64,000 nucleotides of DNA from positions 3,534,001 through 3,598,000 of the forward strand of contig NZ_CP036525.1 of NCBI RefSeq assembly GCF_007741535.1, written 5' to 3'. Both the position numbers and the translations under genes were made by a program. This stretch comes from Rubripirellula lacrimiformis (GTDB lineage Bacteria; Planctomycetota; Planctomycetia; Pirellulales; Pirellulaceae). The notes beneath the pieces are model-generated. The model saw nothing but the letters and a program-made list of their open reading frames with translations. It was not told where the DNA came from and did not search any database. The first letter of the stretch is position 1. Each line of letters starts with the position of its first letter. Positions 2,772 through 56,110 of the stretch are shown here, in pieces.

Positions 2772-2899
2772 CCGTAGCGCAAGTCGCCAAGACTTTCGGT
2801 CTATCAGCAAACACCCGTAGCGCAAGTCGCCAAGACTTTCGGTCTACGCTTTCGGGAATCGATGTTGGAGGCCGAAAGTCTTGGCGACTTGCGCTACGG
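2772..2899. repeat. dispersed 28-bp arm repeat: two direct copies and one inverted copy
   Basis: A 28-bp sequence beginning CCGTAGCGCAAGTCGCC and ending AAGACTTTCGG occurs at 2772-2799 and 2815-2842. It occurs again as the exact reverse complement at 2872-2899. Copies two and three can pair into a hairpin with a 29-nt loop. The same arm is the core of the 13.8-15.8 kb tandem array, so this is a dispersed repeat family of the genome. Confidence 0.95.
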
Positions 2900-5085: not shown

Positions 5086-8064
5086 CTACTCTGCAGCTTC
5101 CTGTTCGGCTCGTGCCGTGGATGCTGCGGCAAAGTCGCCGGCTACTGCTGTCACCAACTTGCCAGGATGGATGTACTTGCGAATCGCCTCGTTGACGCTT
5201 TCGACGGTGGCATCCTGGATCTGGCGATCGTGGGCCGCGTAGTACTCCATCGTTCGGTCGTTGAACATCGTGCTGAGCAGTTCACCGGCTAACGAAGCGT
5301 CGGCGACACGACGAACTCGAGCGGACTGCAGGTACGACACTTTCGCCTTCTCCAGTTCGTCTTCGGTGATTCCCTGGTCACGAATTCGATCGATTTCTTC
5401 CAGCAGAACCTCCGTCAAACGATCCTTGTTTTCAGGGTTGGTGATCGCGTAGATCGTAAAATCGACACGTCCATCCTTGGCTCTCGCGGACAATCCGCTG
5501 CGGACACCGTACGACAAACCTTCTTGTTGGCGAACTCGATCCCCCAGACGGCTGCTGAGCGATCCACCACCGAGGATGAAGTTCCCCAGGACCAGCGAAG
5601 CATACTCGGGCTGATCGTCAGCCAAGGCGTACTGTTGGCTGGTGTAATAGACCGCGTTCGCTTTGTCTGGCGTTTCGATGATGTCGGTCGATCCAGGCAG
5701 TTCCGGATGCGGATCCCGGTCGACTCGCACGTACGCGATGTCGGTATCCCAGTCGGTCAATTCCGCCTTCATCAGTCGTTTGACTTCTTCGGCATCAAAG
5801 TCGCCAACAACCGACAGTTCACCCGCTTGGTTGCTGAAAAAGTCCGCGTGCAGTTGTTTCAGTTCGTCGATTTCGACGGCCGAATACATCGCAATTTCTT
5901 CTTCCAGCGTTTGCACGTATCGGATGTCATCAGGCCCATAGGGTGATAGCGTCCGTCGAACACTGCGCGGCGCCAAAGCTTGTGGATCCGTCGTGCTCTT
6001 TTGCAAACTGGTGACGATTTGGCGTTTCAGCACGTCCAGTTCCGTCGCATCCAATCGAGGGCGACGCACGATGTCACCGATCAATCCGATCACTTCGGGC
6101 AGGAACTCACGTTTCGTTTTGACGCTCAATTGCATCAGTCCGACGGTCGTGTTGAGCGACAGTTCGGCCCGCAGCCGAGTCAGTTCGTCTTGCAGTTCGG
6201 TGTAGTCCAGTTTGTCGGTCCCACGTGACATCACGATGCCAAGCAGTTCGACGGCACCGATTTTATCCTTCAACGTATCGGCGGTCCCGAATCGAAGGGT
6301 CAGCATCAAGGAAACCGTTTCGCCGCGTGTCTTCTTGGGCAACAACGCGTATTGGATTCCGCCAACCAGATCGCCACGCTGGGTACGAGCTTCGATGGCG
6401 TCCGGCGATGGGTCGAATTGTTCGCCCGCAGCAATCGCTGCTCGCCCCTTGTAATCCTTGAAAACGGTCTTTAAATCGGGGGCTTCGGGAACTTCGATAC
6501 GGTCCGACGTTTCGCTCGGGATGAACAAGCCGACCGTTCGGTTGTTTCGCACAAAGTACTTTTGGGCCACGCGTTGAACCTGATCCAACGTCAATGCTTC
6601 GACATTATCGCGGAACAGGAAATACAAACGCCAATCGCCTTGGGCGGCCCAGTCGCTAAGGCTGACGGCGACTTTGTCCGAGTCCCCGGCGGCCAATTCG
6701 CGATGTTTCAGGATCTGTTGGACCGCACGGTCCAGTTCCTGTTGGGTGATGGGATCGGTGGCGAATGATTCTTCCATCACATCGATCAACTTGACCCGAG
6801 CAGCCTCGATCGACTTGTCGACGTTGACTTCGGCCAAGGCCATGAACAGGCCTGGTTCGGTGAACGCGTTGGCCATCGCATAGACATTCGACGCGATTTC
6901 CGTTTGGACCATCTGTTTGTACAGTCGGCCACTCGGTTCATCACCCAGGATGTAGACCAAGGCCTTCACAGCCGCAAAATCGGGGTGGCTGCTGGACGGA
7001 ATGTGATAGGCCGTGCCAGCCAATTGGATTTCACCGACGCGGCGAAGCACGACGGTGCGTTCCCCATCCTGGGCAGGTTCGGTGGTGTAGGTGTCGTCGA
7101 TCGGTTCATCCGGTTTGTGCAGCGAACCGAAGTACTTTTGCACGTACTGAAGCGCTTCGTCGGGATCAAATTTGCCGGCCAAGGTGACCATGACGTTGTC
7201 TGGCCGGTAAAATTTGCGATAAAACTTTCTCAGCCGTACGACTGGCACACGTTCGATATCGCTGCGGTTACCGATGGTCGAACGGCCGTAGTTGTGCCAA
7301 TCGTAGGCACCGGATTGGATCCGCTGCATCAGCACTCGGATGGGCGAATTTTCGCCACTTTCGAATTCGTTCCGCACGACGGTCATCTCTTTTTCAAGAT
7401 CTTCGCCGCGAATGAAGCTGTTGACCAATCGGTCAGCTTCTAGCCGGATCGCGAATTCCAGGTTGTCGCCGACCGCGGGTAGCGTCTCGTAATAGTTGGT
7501 GCGGTCGGTCCAGGTGGTCCCGTTCATCGAATTGCCCGCACCGCGTTCTTTCAACGCTTTGGGGATATCCGGATGCATCGGCGTGCCCTTGAACAACATG
7601 TGTTCCAACAGGTGAGCCATGCCGGCTTCGCCGTATCCTTCGTGGCGTGAACCGACAAAGATAGTCATGTTGACCGTCACGACTTCTTTGCTGTCGTCGG
7701 GGTACAACAGCACGCGAACGCCATTTTCAAGCTGGTATTCCGAAATGCCTTCGATTTCGGTGACCTTCACAGGGCTAACTTCGGTAGCTCCATCCACTTC
7801 GGGATCTTTCGTGTTTGCGGTAGCGGGCGACTGAGCCGTGGTTGGCTCCGAACTCGGCTCGTCTGCCCGAATCAGGCCGAGGGGGAAAACGCAAAGGCAT
7901 ACCAATGCGATGATACCGGCAACAAGGCGCTTTCCTTGCTTCTGCCGATCCGTGCAGGGTCGATCCTGCTTGGGACACTGTTTCGCTGCCGCCGTCGTCA
8001 AGCGATCGCAGGTCGAAACGCCCTCGACCGTCGCGGGGTGTAAATGATGGAAGGTCACAGCCAT
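5086..8064 (-). CDS. M16 family zinc metalloprotease, two-domain, exported
   Basis: This pitrilysin/insulinase-type peptidase has the inverted zinc motif HLLEH at residues 151-155, inside GMAHLLEHMLFKGT. His151 and His155 bind zinc, Glu154 is the catalytic base, and a downstream Glu completes the site. Residues about 110-320 form the first M16 domain and 330-510 its inactive partner. A second M16 pair follows from about residue 565 to 960 and lacks HxxEH, as is usual in the 900-1000-residue class. A hydrophobic segment at 47-65 ending before RADEP is a signal peptide or anchor, so it acts in the periplasm or outer envelope. The AAGGAG ribosome site is only 1 nt before ATG 8064, so the GTG two codons later (8058) may be the real start. 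It converges on the HEAT-like gene. Confidence 0.95.
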   Translation of the reverse strand: MAVTFHHLHPATVEGVSTCDRLTTAAAKQCPKQDRPCTDRQKQGKRLVAGIIALVCLCVFPLGLIRADEPSSEPTTAQSPATANTKDPEVDGATEVSPVKVTEIEGISEYQLENGVRVLLYPDDSKEVVTVNMTIFVGSRHEGYGEAGMAHLLEHMLFKGTPMHPDIPKALKERGAGNSMNGTTWTDRTNYYETLPAVGDNLEFAIRLEADRLVNSFIRGEDLEKEMTVVRNEFESGENSPIRVLMQRIQSGAYDWHNYGRSTIGNRSDIERVPVVRLRKFYRKFYRPDNVMVTLAGKFDPDEALQYVQKYFGSLHKPDEPIDDTYTTEPAQDGERTVVLRRVGEIQLAGTAYHIPSSSHPDFAAVKALVYILGDEPSGRLYKQMVQTEIASNVYAMANAFTEPGLFMALAEVNVDKSIEAARVKLIDVMEESFATDPITQQELDRAVQQILKHRELAAGDSDKVAVSLSDWAAQGDWRLYFLFRDNVEALTLDQVQRVAQKYFVRNNRTVGLFIPSETSDRIEVPEAPDLKTVFKDYKGRAAIAAGEQFDPSPDAIEARTQRGDLVGGIQYALLPKKTRGETVSLMLTLRFGTADTLKDKIGAVELLGIVMSRGTDKLDYTELQDELTRLRAELSLNTTVGLMQLSVKTKREFLPEVIGLIGDIVRRPRLDATELDVLKRQIVTSLQKSTTDPQALAPRSVRRTLSPYGPDDIRYVQTLEEEIAMYSAVEIDELKQLHADFFSNQAGELSVVGDFDAEEVKRLMKAELTDWDTDIAYVRVDRDPHPELPGSTDIIETPDKANAVYYTSQQYALADDQPEYASLVLGNFILGGGSLSSRLGDRVRQQEGLSYGVRSGLSARAKDGRVDFTIYAITNPENKDRLTEVLLEEIDRIRDQGITEDELEKAKVSYLQSARVRRVADASLAGELLSTMFNDRTMEYYAAHDRQIQDATVESVNEAIRKYIHPGKLVTAVAGDFAAASTARAEQEAAE

Positions 8065-12919: not shown

Positions 12920-13783
12920 ATGGAAGTCGTCATCACCGCTCTGGGGCCGGACAACGTCGGTTTGGCCGACCCGATCATTCACTATGTGACCGGCCAGGGG
13001 GCCCGGATCGCCGAGATCCAGATGTATGACCACGACGAAGAACAGTTGTTCGCGATGATTTGTCGTATCGACATCCAGCGCAATCAGTACCAGCCCTTGG
13101 TCGATGCGATGCGGCAAATCGGCCAGCACACGAAATTGGCGATTCGTGTCTGGAGTTCCGAAAGACGGGCCCCGGATAAGCCGCGTTTGGCGATCTGCTG
13201 TACGTACAAGGACGATACGCCGCGGGCTGTTCTGGAAGCGATCGCAGCCGGAACGATCGGTGCCGATGCGGCGGTGTTGATTTCTAACCGAGGGAAGTTG
13301 CAGGGATTGGCCGAGGAATTCGGCGTGCCGTTTTCGATGATCGGTGATGAAAACGGGGCCGCTGACGATGCCGCGATGGTGGACGTGCTGGACGAATTCG
13401 ACGTCGACTACGTGGTTCTAGCCCGCTACATGCGCGTGTTGCCTCCATCGACCTGTTGGCAGTTCGCGGGCGGTCGGATTGTGAATCTGCACCACGGGTT
13501 GTTGCCCGGATTTCCGGGGTTTCGGCCCTACCACGATGCCTTCGCCGCTCGGATGCTGACATTCGGGGCGACCTGCCATTTCATTATCCCGGAATTGGAC
13601 GCAGGCAATCAAACGATCAACCAGCGGACCTTTTCGGTTTCCCCGGGAACCCCGTTGGATGCGATCATCGAACAAGGCGGCCGCGAAAATGAACCGGCTT
13701 GTTTGGTCGAAGGGGTCCGCCGGGTGGTGGATCGTGAAGTCTATCTGCACTTTCACCGCGTCGTCGCACGGTCCACTCCGTAG
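12920..13783 (+). CDS. purU: formyltetrahydrofolate deformylase
   Basis: It hydrolyses 10-formyl-THF to THF and formate, balancing one-carbon pools and supplying formate for purine synthesis. ATG 12920 gives MEVVITALGPDNVGLADP, the start of an N-terminal ACT domain (about residues 1-80). A formyl-transferase domain follows (88-275). The catalytic trio of the hydrolase/GART fold is visible: Asn189 and His191 in VNLHHGLLPG and Asp227 in PELDAG. At 287 residues it has the family's usual length. The last two codons, CCG TAG, belong to the repeat element that begins at 13778, so the repeat supplies the stop codon. Confidence 0.95.
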   Translation: MEVVITALGPDNVGLADPIIHYVTGQGARIAEIQMYDHDEEQLFAMICRIDIQRNQYQPLVDAMRQIGQHTKLAIRVWSSERRAPDKPRLAICCTYKDDTPRAVLEAIAAGTIGADAAVLISNRGKLQGLAEEFGVPFSMIGDENGAADDAAMVDVLDEFDVDYVVLARYMRVLPPSTCWQFAGGRIVNLHHGLLPGFPGFRPYHDAFAARMLTFGATCHFIIPELDAGNQTINQRTFSVSPGTPLDAIIEQGGRENEPACLVEGVRRVVDREVYLHFHRVVARSTP

Positions 13784-15834
13784 CGCAAGTCGCCAAGACT
13801 TTCGGTGATCCCACCGCCGATCGGCCCCACATTCCGATCGCTTTTTCGTAGCGCAAGTCGCCAAGACTTTCGGTGATCCCACATCCGAGGCCGAAAGTCT
13901 TGGCGACTTGCGCTACGGTGATGAGGATGACGACGATGATGGCGTTGGGAGGATCGATTCGGCGGCCTTTTCTTTCACCGCGTCTTCTCGCGATCCACTC
14001 CGTAGCGCAAGTCGCCAAGACTTTCGGTGATCCCACATCCGAGGCCGAAAGTCTTGGCGACTTGCGCTACGGTGATGAGGATGACGACGATGATGGCGTT
14101 GGGAGGATCGATTCGGCGGCCTTTTCTTTCACCGCGTCGTCGCGCGGTCCACTCCGTAGCGCAAGTCGCCAAGACTTTCGGTGATCCCACATCCAAGGCC
14201 GAAAGTCTTGGCGACTTGCGCTACGGTGATGAGGATGACGACGATGATGGCGTTGGGAGGATCGATTCGGCGGCCTTTTCTTTCACCGCGTCTTCGCGCG
14301 GTCCACTCCGTAGCGCAAGTCGCCCAGACTTTCGGTAATCCCACATCCGAGGCCGAAAGTCTTGGCGACTTGCGCTACGGTGATGAGGATGACGACGACG
14401 ATGACGTTGGGAGGATCGATTCTGCGGCCTTTTCTTTCACCGCGTCGTCGCACGATCCACTCCGTAGCGCAAGTCGCCAAGACTTTCGGTGATCCCACAT
14501 CCGAGGCCGAAAGTCTTGGCGACTTGCGCTACGGTGATGAGGATGACGACGATGATGGCGTTGGGAGGATCGATTCGGCGGCCTTTTCTTTCACCGCGTC
14601 GTCGCACGATCCACTCCGTAGCGCAAGTCGCCAAGACTTTCGGTAATCCCACATCCGAGGCCGAAAGTCTTGGCGACTTGCGCTACGGTGATGAGGATGA
14701 CGACGATGATGGCGTTGGGAGGATCGATTCGGCGGCCTTTTCTTTCACCGCGTCTTCGCGCGGTCCACTCCGTAGCGCAAGTCGCCAAGACTTTCGGTAA
14801 TCCCACATCCGAGGCCGAAAGTCTTGGCGACTTGCGCTACGGTGATGAGGATGACGACGATGATGGTGTTGGGAGGATCGATTCGGCGGCCTTTTCTTTC
14901 ACCGCGTCGTCGCACGATCCACTCCGTAACGCAAGTCGCCAAGACTTTCGGTAATCCCACATCCAAGGCCGAAAGTCTTGGCGACTTGCGCTACGGTGAT
15001 GAGGATGACGACGATGATGGCGTTGGGAGGATCGATTCGGCGGCCTTTTCTTTCACCGCGTCGTCGCACGATCCACTCCGTAGCGCAAGTCGCCAAGACT
15101 TTCGGTAATCCGCCGCCGATCGCGCCCCACATTCCGATCGCTTTTCCGTAGCGCAAGTCGCCAAGACTTTCGGTAATCCCACATCCGAGGCCGAAAGTCT
15201 TGGCGACTTGCGCTACGGTGATGAGGATGACGACGATGATGGCGTTGGGAGGATCGATTCGGCGGCCTTTTCTTTCACCGCGTCTTCTCGCGATCCACTC
15301 CGTAGCGCAAGTCGCCAAGACTTTCGGTAATCCCACATCCAAGGCCGAAAGTCTTGGCGACTTGCGCTACGGTGATGAGAATGACGACGATGATGGCGTT
15401 GGGAGGATCGATTCGGCGGCCTTTTCTTTCACCGCGTCGTCGCACGATCCACTCCGTAGCGTAAGTCGCCAAGACTTTCGGTAATCCCACATCCGAGGCC
15501 GAAAGTCTTGGCGACTTGCGCTACGGTGATGAGGATGACGACGATGATGGCGTTGGGAGGATCGATTCGGCGGCCTTTTCTTTCACCGCGTCTTCTCGCG
15601 ATCCACTCCGTAGCGCAAGTCGCCAAGACTTTCGGTAATCCCACATCCAAGGCCGAAAGTCTTGGCGACTTGCGCTACGGTGATGAGAATGACGACGATG
15701 ATGGCGTTGGGAGGATCGATTCGGCGGCCTTTTCTTTCACCGCGTCGTCGCACGATCCACTCCGTAGCGCAAGTCGCCAAGACTTTCGGTGATCCCACAT
15801 CCGAGGCCGAAAGTCTTGGCGACTTGCGCTACGG
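13778..15834. repeat. tandem array: 13 units of 154 bp with 28-bp inverted arms
   Basis: Each unit holds a forward arm (CCGTAGCGCAAGTCGCC...TTTCGG, 28 bp), a 17-nt loop (TGATCCCACATCCGAGG) and the reverse-complement arm. An 81-bp linker follows. Reverse arms start at 13891, 14045, 14199, 14353, 14507, 14661, 14815, 14969, 15191, 15345, 15499, 15653 and 15807, so the period is 154 except for one step of 222. An extra unpaired arm with a 68-bp spacer (CCGCCGATCG...ATTCCGATCGC) precedes the first unit and recurs at about 15080. The linker is a copy of the last 55 bp of tsaB joined to the last 28 bp of purU. The array therefore arose by tandem duplication across the junction of the two convergent genes. 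Units differ at few positions. Confidence 0.97.
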
Positions 15835-16584
15835 TGATGAGGATGACGACGATGATGGCGTTGGGAGGATCGATTCGGCGGCCTTTTCTTCGGCGGCGCT
15901 TCGTTTCAGGTAGCGGGGTACCAGTTGCATTGGGTCGACCAATCGGCCCTGAATCGCCGCTCGCAATCCCAGCATCCCGACTCCGACGGCGTCACAGTCA
16001 CTTTCCAGTCGTCGCTGGGCGTGGTCGCCAAACGCTTTTGCGTCGCCGGCAAACGCGTAGGTTTCCGCTAGCAGCGGCAAATCTTTCTGGAACGACTTGA
16101 TCGATTGCACCTGGGTGGAATCGCGGTCGGCCGACCAATGCTTGTCGATTTTTAGATCTTCCAGCGGCGGTAAAAGTTGGCTGCGACAAAATTTCCCCTG
16201 AAAGATCTCACCACGAAACGCATCGATCGCTGCAAGCACCTGATCGACACTGGGGTGCTGGGCCATGCGGCAGGCGGCAATGGCGGCCAGCGAATCCACG
16301 CTGACCAGCGGGATTTTCAACGCGTAGGCCAGTGTTTTTGCGGTCGTGACCCCGATTCGGAGCCCGGTGAACGACCCGGGGCCATCGGCGACGGAGATGA
16401 ACCCCAAACGATTGGATTCCAGCGACGGATGATCAGAGCACCACTGGATGATTTCCGCGATCGCAGGAGCCAACGAGGCCGCGGTTCGCAGTCCAGGATC
16501 CAATGAAACACGCCGCAGGACGAGTTCCTTTGAAAAAAGAGCCACCGATCCGGTTCTTGACGTCGTTTCGATTGCCAGTTGCAG
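15829..16584 (-). CDS. tsaB: TsaB, tRNA t6A threonylcarbamoyl transferase subunit, unusual start
   Basis: TsaB partners TsaD and TsaE in making t6A37 on ANN-decoding tRNAs. The signature ISVADGPGSFTGLRIGV is present, followed by KTLAYALKIPLVSVDSLAA. The usual first ATG/GTG/TTG in frame is GTG 16545, but that would start inside the conserved N-terminus. Upstream codons in the same frame read LAIETTSRTGSVALF, the canonical first strand, with no stop until 16656. No ATG, GTG or TTG occurs there, so the start is probably a CTG at 16584 or 16578; an upstream GGGGAA could be its ribosome site. The last 18 residues (ILPTPSSSSSSSP) and the stop TAG are in the final array unit. Confidence 0.88.
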   Translation of the reverse strand: MQLAIETTSRTGSVALFSKELVLRRVSLDPGLRTAASLAPAIAEIIQWCSDHPSLESNRLGFISVADGPGSFTGLRIGVTTAKTLAYALKIPLVSVDSLAAIAACRMAQHPSVDQVLAAIDAFRGEIFQGKFCRSQLLPPLEDLKIDKHWSADRDSTQVQSIKSFQKDLPLLAETYAFAGDAKAFGDHAQRRLESDCDAVGVGMLGLRAAIQGRLVDPMQLVPRYLKRSAAEEKAAESILPTPSSSSSSSP

Positions 16585-19309: not shown

Positions 19310-19424
19310 GGCAGATCGAAGCATTCAAGGAAGGGAGGGATAGGAGGTGGGATAGTTACCCTCAATTCTAATTGCCGGCGGATCCGGCGCGAATCAAGGT
19401 TTTTTGAAGGGGGGAGGTGCTCGA

Positions 19425-19482
19425 GTTTGAGTTCAAGTTCGAGTTCGAGTTCGAGTTCAAGTTCAAGTTCAAGCACGAGAGC
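19425..19482. repeat. GAGTTC/AAGTTC hexamer tract
   Basis: About nine consecutive hexamers of the form GAGTTC or CAAGTTC run from about 19425 to 19482. The same hexamer makes up the arms of the repeats at 36405-36550 and 54903-56100, so this is a short dispersed member of that family. Confidence 0.85.
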
Positions 19483-19486
19483 TGGT

Positions 19487-19810
19487 GCAGCTCTGGCACC
19501 CCTCTCCCCCTCGTCGGCCGCGAGTTCTACTCGCGTCCGGCGTGGGGGAGAGGGGCCGGGGGTGAGGGGGGGCGACCGTCCAAAACCTCTCGCCGCACTT
19601 GCAGCTCTGGCACCCCTCTCCCCCTCGTCAGCCGCGAGTTCTGCTCGCGTCCGACGTGGGGGAGAGGGGCGGGGGTGAGGGGGGGGGCGAGCACGACCAA
19701 AAACGCGAGAGCAGTTGCAGCTCTGGCTCCCCTCTCCCCCTCGTCTGCCGCGAGTTCTACTCGCGTCCGACGTGGGGGAGAGGGGCCGGGGGTGAGGGGG
19801 GCGACCTTCC
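19487..19810. repeat. three tandem GC-rich palindromic cassettes of about 115 bp
   Basis: Three copies start near 19487, 19601 and 19716. Each begins GCAGCTCTGG, then CCCCTCTCCCCC, an inner palindrome GCGAGTTCTACTCGC, then GTGGGGGAGAGGGG and GGGGGTGAGGGGG. The outer C-rich and G-rich blocks pair, so each copy folds as a long hairpin with a second palindrome at its tip. Copies differ by single substitutions. No protein is encoded. Confidence 0.92.
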
Positions 19811-19843
19811 AAAAACTCTCGCCGCACCGCGGCGGCCGCGTTT

Positions 19844-36404: not shown

Positions 36405-36550
36405 AAGTTCGAGTTCGAGTTTAAGTTCGAGTTTAAGTTGCTTGCTGGATAGCAGTCCCGAAACTTAAACTTAAACTTAAACTTAAACTTAAACTCGAAC
36501 TCGAACTCGAACTCGAACTCGAACTCGAATTCGAATTCGAACTCAAACTC
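36405..36550. repeat. inverted GAGTTC/AACTCG hexamer element
   Basis: AAGTTCGAGTTCGAG... runs into a loop (TTGCTTGCTGGATAGCAGTCCC). Then come about 15 hexamers of AAACTT, AACTCG and AATTCG types in the complementary sense. The two sides can pair as a long, mismatched hairpin. It is the same family as 54903-56100 and 19425-19482. Confidence 0.88.
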
Positions 36551-36653
36551 ACGCCCCAGCCGGCCTTTCATCGCTACCGTTCCGCCAAACGCGATGACAT
36601 CGCACCATCGCGGGGAGGCGGCGATCGCGGTCGGGGCCGTTAGATCGCGGCTA

Positions 36654-54902: not shown

Positions 54903-56110
54903 CAATACCAAAACTCGTACTCGTACCCCGCCCAAACCTGCGGCCAAAAAGAACGCGATCACCGTCCGAACCATTCTGATGCGGATCAGCCGCTGTCGCG
55001 AAGCGTTCTCCAGCCCGTGTCAAAGGGCGAGATGCTGCGTTGCTTCGGTGGAACGCGAAGAAAAGTTCGAGTTCGAGTTTCAGTTCGAGTTTAAGTTGCG
55101 TGCGGGAGAGTGGTCCGAGAACTGGTGCTCGAACTTAAACTCGAACTCGAACTCGAACTCGTACCCCGCCCAAACCTGCGGCTAAAAAGACGATGACCGT
55201 CCGAACCATTCTGATGCTGATCGGCCGCTGCCGCGAAGCGTTCTCCAGCCCGTGTCAAAGGGCGAGATGCTGCGTTGCTTCGGTGGAACGCGAAGAAAAG
55301 TTCGAGTTCGAGTTTAAGTTCGAGTTTAAGTTGCATGCAGGAGAGTGGTCCGAGAACTGGTGCTCGAACTTAAACTTAAACTCGAACTCGTACCCCGCCC
55401 AAACCTGCGGCTAAAAAGACGATGACCGTCAGAATCATTCTGACGCGGATCAGCCGCTGTCGCGAAACGTTCTCCAGCCGGTGTCAAAGGGCGAGATGCT
55501 GCGTTGCTTCGGTGGAACGCAAAGAAAAGTTCGAGTTCGAGTTTCAGTTCGAGTTTAAGTTGCGTGCGGGAGAGTGGTCCGAGAACTGGTGCTCGAACTT
55601 AAACTTAAACTTAAACTTAAACTTAAACTTAAACTTAAACTCGAACTCGAACTCGAACTCGAACTCGAACTCGAACTCGAACTCGAACTCGAACTCGAAC
55701 TCGAACTCGAACTCGAACTCGAACTTAAACTCGAACTCGTACCCCGCCCAAACCTGCGGCCAAAAAGAACGCGATCACCGTCAGAATTATTCTGACGCGG
55801 ATCAGCCGCTGTCGCGAAGCGTTCTCCAGCCCGTGCCAAAGGGCGAAATGCTGCGTTGCTTCGGTGGAACGCAAAGAAAAGTTCGAGTTCGAGTTTCAGT
55901 TCGAGTTTAAGTTGCGTGCGGGAGAGTGGTCCGAGAACTGGTGCTCGAACTTAAACTTAAACTCGAACTCGAACTCGTACTTACACCCCGCCCAAACCTG
56001 CGGCCCAAAAGAACGCGATCACCGTCAGAACCATGCGGATCAGCCGCTGCCGCGAAGCGTTCTCCAGCCTGTGTCAGAGGCGAGCCGCTGCGTTGCTTCG
56101 ATCGAACGCA
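54903..56110. repeat. tandem block of hexamer-armed units (about 4.5 copies)
   Basis: Units start at the shared sequence GTACCCCGCCCAAACCTGCGG near 54923, 55163, 55391 and 55739, with a diverged partial copy near 55985. Each has a flank (GTTCTCCAGCC...GTGCTGCGTTGC-like), a (GAGTTC/GAGTTT) arm, a loop (GCGTGCGGGAGAGTGGTCC), then a complementary (AACTTAAACTCG) arm. The third unit carries about 24 consecutive AACTTA/AACTCG hexamers (about 55597-55740). Units differ in hexamer number and a few bases. No coding gene is supported inside. Confidence 0.93.

Follow-up and report, generated by a model that had tools for sequence, protein, structure and literature searches.

REP elements that gather in tandem clusters have been described in several bacteria. 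The excerpts available of a 2013 paper on the GTAG-tagged REP superfamily (PMC3733652) already report clusters with co-amplified flanks and TAG stop codons supplied by the REP. In the corresponding text on P. fluorescens SBW25, tandem REP arrays point forward around 2 Mb and in reverse around 4 Mb (PMC3116915, 2011), and in that on BIMEs the 3′ ends of rayt genes are built into the repeat (PMC2817692, 2010). A survey of E. coli, in its sections at hand, places REPs on both strands with no clear clustering or periodicity (PMC12306157), and Rhodopirellula baltica is listed with 29 satellites in those of PMC6749651. Jointly, the available parts of seven papers (PMC3733652, PMC3116915, PMC8266576, PMC2817692, PMC12306157, PMC6006769 and PMC6749651) show that REPs in Planctomycetes are already described, as is the link between IS200/IS605 transposition and the lagging-strand template. 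Within literature in which subscription journals are thinly covered and papers are available in part, we found no report of the REP family described here, or of genome-wide REP polarity in Planctomycetes. For the growth of REP clusters, these partial texts still offer only models, in which either recombination acts blindly or an enzyme recognises the REP.

We analyzed an array of this kind at the junction of two convergent genes in Rubripirellula lacrimiformis, on one contig of 8,542,491 bases (8.54 Mb). The window, meaning the whole stretch of 64,000 nucleotides that was analysed, spans positions 3534001-3598000 of this contig. Its relevant features, in window coordinates, are the following.

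2774..2897, no strand assigned: another locus of this REP family, with two copies in direct orientation at a distance of 43 bp and a third copy inverted (arm search)
12920..13783, + strand: purU-like gene (formyltetrahydrofolate deformylase family), with its TAG stop in the GTAG of the first REP
13778..13847, + strand: first lone REP-A arm (GTAG at 13780) and a 68-bp step (arm search, unit alignment)
13848..15079, no strand assigned: hairpin units 1-8, eight 154-bp periods (arm search, tandem repeats, unit alignment)
15080..15147, + strand: second lone REP-A arm and a 68-bp step, the mark of a block duplication (arm search, unit alignment)
15148..15763, no strand assigned: hairpin units 9-12, with pairs 9-10 and 11-12 near-identical (unit alignment)
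15762..15834, no strand assigned: 13th and last hairpin, whose outer GTAG at 15829-15832 is, on the bottom strand, the tsaB stop (arm search)
15829..16545, - strand: tsaB, 238 codons from a GTG start, with a C-terminus 12 residues longer than in congener G011

Direct reading, arm search, tandem-repeat finding and unit alignment resolve positions 13778-15834 into 13 hairpins of 73 bp and two lone half-hairpins. The 26-bp arm GTAGCGCAAGTCGCCAAGACTTTCGG occurs in 28 copies at 13780-15832 (15 forward and 13 reverse) and in 31 copies in the whole 64-kb window, with up to 3 mismatches allowed in both cases; 100 shuffles gave 0 copies. Both arms are exact in 10 of the 13 hairpins, and in the other 3 there is one mismatch in the forward arm. 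Twelve hairpins are part of full 154-bp units, made up of the REP-A arm (26 bp), a loop (17 bp), the inverted arm (26 bp), a tsaB end (55 bp) and a purU end (30 bp), while the 13th runs straight into the end of tsaB itself. The lone forward arms lie at 13780 and 15080, and the 68-bp steps that follow them are related to each other, with 12 of 68 aligned positions different, a pattern that by eye looks like small indels. The sequence-only reading had already described 13 hairpin units of 73 bp with a 154-bp period, which are present together with the two lone arms; its description of almost no drift is roughly right, yet the unit alignment shows 14 of 154 columns to vary among the 12 units. A CRISPR-like array is rejected, since the spacers in each array are versions of each other rather than unique.

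Elsewhere in the window there are other repeats: runs of the hexamer AGTTCG/AACTCG and its relatives at 19421-19479, 36405-36551, 55128-55161, 55298-55332 and 55592-55739, tandem repeats of 114-116 bp in about 3 copies at 19476-19827, and a 229-bp tandem repeat in 3 copies at 54911-55611, the two tandem repeats being without the REP core.

The array reaches into both flanking genes: the TAG stops of purU and tsaB lie within its outermost GTAG motifs, and both genes end, as first read, in CCG TAG, one on each strand. In profile searches, TsaB exceeds its NCBIfam cut-off; the best matches of PurU to formyltetrahydrofolate deformylase models reach 148.6 and 130.0 bits, below the curated cut-offs, so that "purU-like" is the safe name. 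Each gene still has its full reading frame, so the end copies carried by the array are additional to it. The earlier idea that the element rewrites the ends of the two genes fits TsaB, which is 12 residues longer than in G011 (14 residues follow EEKAAE here, 2 in G011), but is partly overstated, because PurU keeps its length (ARAQV* in G011, ARSTP* here).

G011 also provides a view of the junction in a plain state: here purU and tsaB converge on a 52-bp gap, with their own stops and no REP (locus L104). A comparison with relatives to find such an uninserted junction had been proposed at the outset, and it has succeeded in this one relative. The tsaB search covered R. lacrimiformis and 21 congeners, 19 of which have a clear tsaB, and among these 19 purU lies beside tsaB in G011 only, as judged from flanks of at most 1.5 kb, several of them ended by contig ends. 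In three congeners, other short tandem repeats with units of about 18-20 bp lie just after the tsaB stop (L105 in G004, L113 in G013 and L114 in G016).

The composition of the 154-bp unit bears on how it was formed. In the best unit, the spacer matches the 3′ flank over 101 bases and the 5′ flank over 30 bases (one mismatch), and the sum 26 + 101 + 30 - 3 = 154 shows that the flank matches and the arm of 26 together exceed the period by 3. At the unit junction CCTTTTCTTTCACC, the bases CTT are common to both parents, CCTTTTCTTCGG of tsaB and GCACTTTCACC of purU. The surplus of 3 together with the shared CTT is what an illegitimate tandem duplication leaves behind. Between units 9-10 and units 11-12 there is 1 difference in 308 bases, and a 68-bp step is found again at 15080, indicating that later growth proceeded in blocks, as the block-wise duplication first suggested would have it. 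The microhomology argument is confined to the purU-tsaB array; elsewhere the full spacer can be derived from the flanks in some arrays only, and in many it cannot.

We therefore consider it very probable that the locus is a tandem cluster of GTAG-type REPs, with a unit that originated by duplication of the purU end, the hairpin and the tsaB end. A REP pair would have landed in the gap between the convergent purU and tsaB, and its outer GTAG motifs would have taken over as stops for the two of them. The 154-bp unit would then have come from an illegitimate tandem duplication between the CTT sequences of the two gene ends, and the array may have grown in blocks through unequal exchange or copying driven by the REP. 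The order first proposed, insertion at the convergent junction and then expansion, agrees with the REP-free junction of one relative, G011, and with a unit that consists of flanks plus hairpin with a 3-bp overlap.

The array is real, but the sequence-only reading could not show how widespread its element is: it belongs to a family with 45 loci in the DNA examined and is not specific to this place. Its arm consists of GTAG followed by an imperfect palindrome, CGCAAGTC-GCCAA-GACTTTCG, and in the predicted fold of a single arm GTAG stays unpaired, as in a GTAG-type REP. The predicted DNA fold is weak for the species' own variant (z = -1.2), and z reaches -2.2 for a second type, REP-B, and -3.75 for the perfect variant of relatives. 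With up to 3 mismatches, the 23-bp core has 277 forward and 258 reverse sites in the whole genome, 535 in total (0 for a reversed-pattern control), and 245 sites are exact. For a census of loci, sites with at most 2 mismatches were clustered at 2.5 kb; the DNA examined comes to about 1.1 of 8.5 Mb and takes in 243 of the 245 exact sites; it yields 45 loci with 310 copies, 24 of them with at least 3 copies and 21 with one or two. The census is complete for exact cores only, and 6 of the 45 loci have no exact core. A high copy number and wide dispersal (535 sites, 45 loci) are what is expected of a GTAG-type REP, and judged by structure and copy number the half-hairpin is one; the array elements here, 13 hairpins of two inverted REPs around a short spacer, are homodimers of the REPIN/BIME-like kind.

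The period is specific to each cluster, with values of 42-49, 53, 55, 66, 83, 85, 87, 98-101, 136, 154, 161, 189 and 270 bp among others. Convergent genes flank 25 of the 45 loci, unidirectional genes 15 and divergent genes 3, with 2 loci unclassified, so that where both neighbours were called, 25 of 43 REP loci are convergent versus 88 of 438 gene gaps (calls from a home-made hexamer gene caller checked on the window only). The family is in this sense mostly extragenic and downstream of genes, as REPs are. In REP-B, a two-sided compensatory change replaces the stem AAGTC/GACTT of REP-A by AACTC/GAGTT; this type has 178 copies in the R. lacrimiformis genome with up to 1 mismatch. The arrays at 849-853 kb (L032) and 6638 kb (L062), on opposite replichores, have a common 83-bp unit and 3′ flank, and therefore a whole array seems to have been copied. 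Two REP arrays are split by a two-ORF insertion sequence that looks IS3-like by eye (L032 at 5989-7604, and L041 between clusters 3406277 and 3408533), and the sequence at the break is identical in both.

We searched 99 genomes, including R. lacrimiformis, for the element with up to one mismatch, and found related REPs in 9 of the 98 others: 70 copies in G021, 42 in G037, 22 in G034, 15 in G058, five in G045, and a single match each in G001, G012, G023 and G025. Among the 21 congeners, at this tolerance, 18 have no copy and two have one, while G021 alone has many. The relatives carry variants that begin with GTAGCGAAAGTC or GTAGCGGAAGTC, the GTAGCGAAAGTC variant being a perfect palindrome. In 4 of the 12 outside loci that we read (L031 and L091-L101), REP-B faces REP-A within about 55 bp, and in a fifth it lies some 240 bp away; the other 7 have no REP-B partner at up to 3 mismatches, apart from one or two look-alikes seen by eye.

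To relate the elements to replication, we took a frame at the contig start for dnaA, followed by dnaN, by eye. In 29 of 34 20-kb blocks (19 of them at 4.1-4.5 Mb), the sign of the skew agrees with an origin at 0 and a terminus at about 4.25 Mb. With the origin and terminus so inferred, the GTAG strand runs with the fork at 37 loci and against it at 6 (p = 1.6e-6, two-sided binomial test, loci treated as independent). Two symmetric arrays were left out of this count, the array at 4303842 and that of the window, which is symmetric except for its two lone arms, both with the fork. Other terminus positions give 38:5 or 36:7. The bias appears in loci with at least 3 copies (20:2 with versus against the fork) and in convergent (20:3), unidirectional (12:3) and divergent (3:0) settings; single copies alone give 12:4 (p = 0.08). 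A bias of 37:6 is what an IS200/IS605-like preference for the lagging-strand template would produce, given the inferred direction of the forks. Among the first 100 of the 178 REP-B sites, the GAGACTC type is on the reverse strand below 3.77 Mb and on the forward strand at 4.29 Mb and beyond, so that its orientation mirrors that of REP-A; other REP-B variants in this set are mixed.

A polarity of this kind might be a by-product of gene orientation. In the examined DNA, however, the hexamer caller places 210 genes on the leading and 263 on the lagging strand, and gene direction therefore does not explain the orientation bias of the REPs. In unidirectional gaps, REPs run 7:0 with the fork where the genes do so, and still 5:3 where the genes run against it, which rejects gene orientation as the main cause but may leave it a minor share. 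With a local GC-skew proxy (ties dropped), the counts are 10:6 in G034 and 8:4 in G058; the same proxy fails in R. lacrimiformis itself (23:22) and is therefore uninformative for the relatives.

The arrays also permit a comparison of REP and spacer within the same units. We used the 14 arrays with at least 7 regular units, two of which were pooled from two neighbouring clusters each. The mean pairwise divergence is 0.7% for the 26-bp REP and 6.8% for the spacer, and the REP is below the spacer in 14 of 14 arrays (Wilcoxon p = 1.2e-4), both when the strand of lower divergence was taken and when the strand was fixed per array. A site search with at most 3 mismatches itself limits the divergence of the REP, but at a level well above the observed values, and none of the 163 regular steps is a double gap that would hide a decayed REP. 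The difference is small in the window array (1.9% versus 3.0%), where variable columns number 3 of 26 in the forward arm, 11 of 128 in the rest and none in the reverse arm, and where 72 of 103 other 26-bp windows are at least as invariant as the forward arm. In the 270-bp array (L064), 97 of 218 other windows equal or surpass the REP in constancy; in three further arrays, this holds for 12 windows in all. Constancy of the REP could mean that units with a damaged REP are not copied, that REPs are homogenised, or that each is under selection; by inference we favor the first.

If an enzyme reads these REPs, no gene for it was found beside them in the DNA examined. R. lacrimiformis has 6 Y1_Tnp proteins, 4 of them above the cut-off, and five REP-bearing relatives have 66; the REP core is absent from the 10-13-kb stretches around all 6 genes of R. 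lacrimiformis and from up to 1.5 kb around 30 of the 66 in relatives. No examined Y1 locus thus has the form of a REPtron, in which a tnpA-REP gene is flanked by the REPs that it mobilises, and the cognate RAYT may have diverged or been lost. Several of the species' own Y1 genes adjoin other repeats, one of them, by eye, a GTAG palindrome of different sequence. At 5538-6302 of locus L078, a Y1 transposase-like gene below the Pfam cut-off is flanked by palindromes of the GTAGGACGGCCTTTCCAGGCCGT type, which may mark another REP family, separate from this one and with a candidate RAYT of its own.

These observations bear on what drives such arrays to grow. Plain unequal crossing-over, in which the hairpin only starts the array and RecA or slippage enlarges it with no REP-specific enzyme, is a serious contender whose chance we put a little short of even: neighbouring unit pairs are near-identical (1/308), the founding junction shows microhomology, no cognate transposase was found beside the REPs, and REP and spacer of the window array have drifted almost equally (1.9% versus 3.0%). 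However, the REP and the spacer of a unit are equally old, and therefore blind exchange should not spare the REP, as 14 of 14 arrays (0.7% versus 6.8%) show it to be spared; nor does crossing-over account for the orientation of arrays (20:2) and, though the argument is weak here, of single copies (12:4, p = 0.08). Under REP-dependent, fork-coupled amplification, only units with intact REPs would be copied, with one strand polarity and by an enzyme encoded elsewhere, and gene ends would be dragged in. We put this mechanism forward tentatively, as a possibility rather than an expectation. Amplification would then require intact REPs, an HUH-type enzyme would do the copying in trans, using the lagging-strand template while it is single-stranded, and the array would be mainly selfish, with at most side effects on mRNA 3′ ends. 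Overall, a selfish, replication-coupled REP array is the most likely description of the locus.

An effect on mRNA would be the main point if the array were kept as a bidirectional terminator or 3′-end stabiliser for purU and tsaB, which we regard as unlikely. The convergent setting and the very stable predicted hairpins (-58.9 kcal/mol as RNA, -38.5 as DNA) would suit this role, and REPs are said to aid Rho-dependent termination in the text available of PMC2817692. Yet no T-run follows the hairpin, which leaves the bidirectional terminator of the sequence-only reading unsupported in its intrinsic form; a single hairpin ought to be enough for this, and no more than two copies are present at 21 of the 45 loci. 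Where 3.0 terminator-like matches would be expected there are 11, all of them one weak stem in tsaB-derived sequence, repeated with the unit. The 14 Rfam matches (miRNA precursors and Ms1, E up to 0.5) do not include one at the gathering score, so a known RNA family is rejected. KOPS and Chi are polar chromosome signals, and REPs could be comparable ones, under selection and read along the fork by a host protein, with arrays as strong sites. The 37:6 polarity and the fact that the 26 bp hardly change in most arrays are in keeping with this, but 18 of 21 congeners have no copy at one mismatch, which argues against a core function of the genus, and the copies are clustered at loci that for the most part separate convergent or unidirectional genes; we consider such a signal highly improbable. 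That the array is an artefact of the single assembly available can hardly be credited at all, because distinct variants mark its units in a block pattern and other periods are seen in arrays at many places of one 8.54-Mb contig.

The REP/REPIN array described here belongs to a known kind of bacterial repeat, and its gene-end twist follows from microhomology duplication. Less expected, and the part worth following, are the polarity of the family along the fork and the constancy of the REP against a drifting spacer. The genome has two dozen clusters that differ in period and allow REP and spacer to be compared unit by unit, which makes models of cluster growth testable, and the polarity along the direction of replication points to the single-stranded lagging-strand template. 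If REP-dependent, fork-coupled reading is true, the arrays would be a natural record of strand-specific processing of single-stranded DNA. For gene annotation, the locus illustrates how mobile repeats can take over the ends of ordinary genes. In BIME-2 elements, linkers are shared between loci, unlike the spacers here, which are mostly locus-specific. The alternation of REPs in tandem copies is nevertheless common to this array and enterobacterial BIME-2, as the excerpts of PMC2817692 and PMC8266576 describe it. As with the rayt 3′ ends built into BIMEs in the same excerpts (PMC2817692), the end of a neighbouring gene has become part of the segment between REPs; the gene there is a transposase, whereas here two housekeeping genes are concerned. 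The available text on the GTAG-tagged superfamily (PMC3733652) does not contain the word "Pirellula", and neither the present sequence family nor a replication polarity was found in it. In SBW25, as far as the text at hand of PMC3116915 goes, three clusters adjoin RAYT genes, while no RAYT was found beside the REPs here, and the largest tandem REPIN cluster has four REPINs, compared with 13 hairpins at the purU-tsaB junction. Both genomes, on the same partial text, have tandem REPINs with their flanks, and in both the arrays are oriented oppositely on the two sides of the chromosome (PMC3116915).
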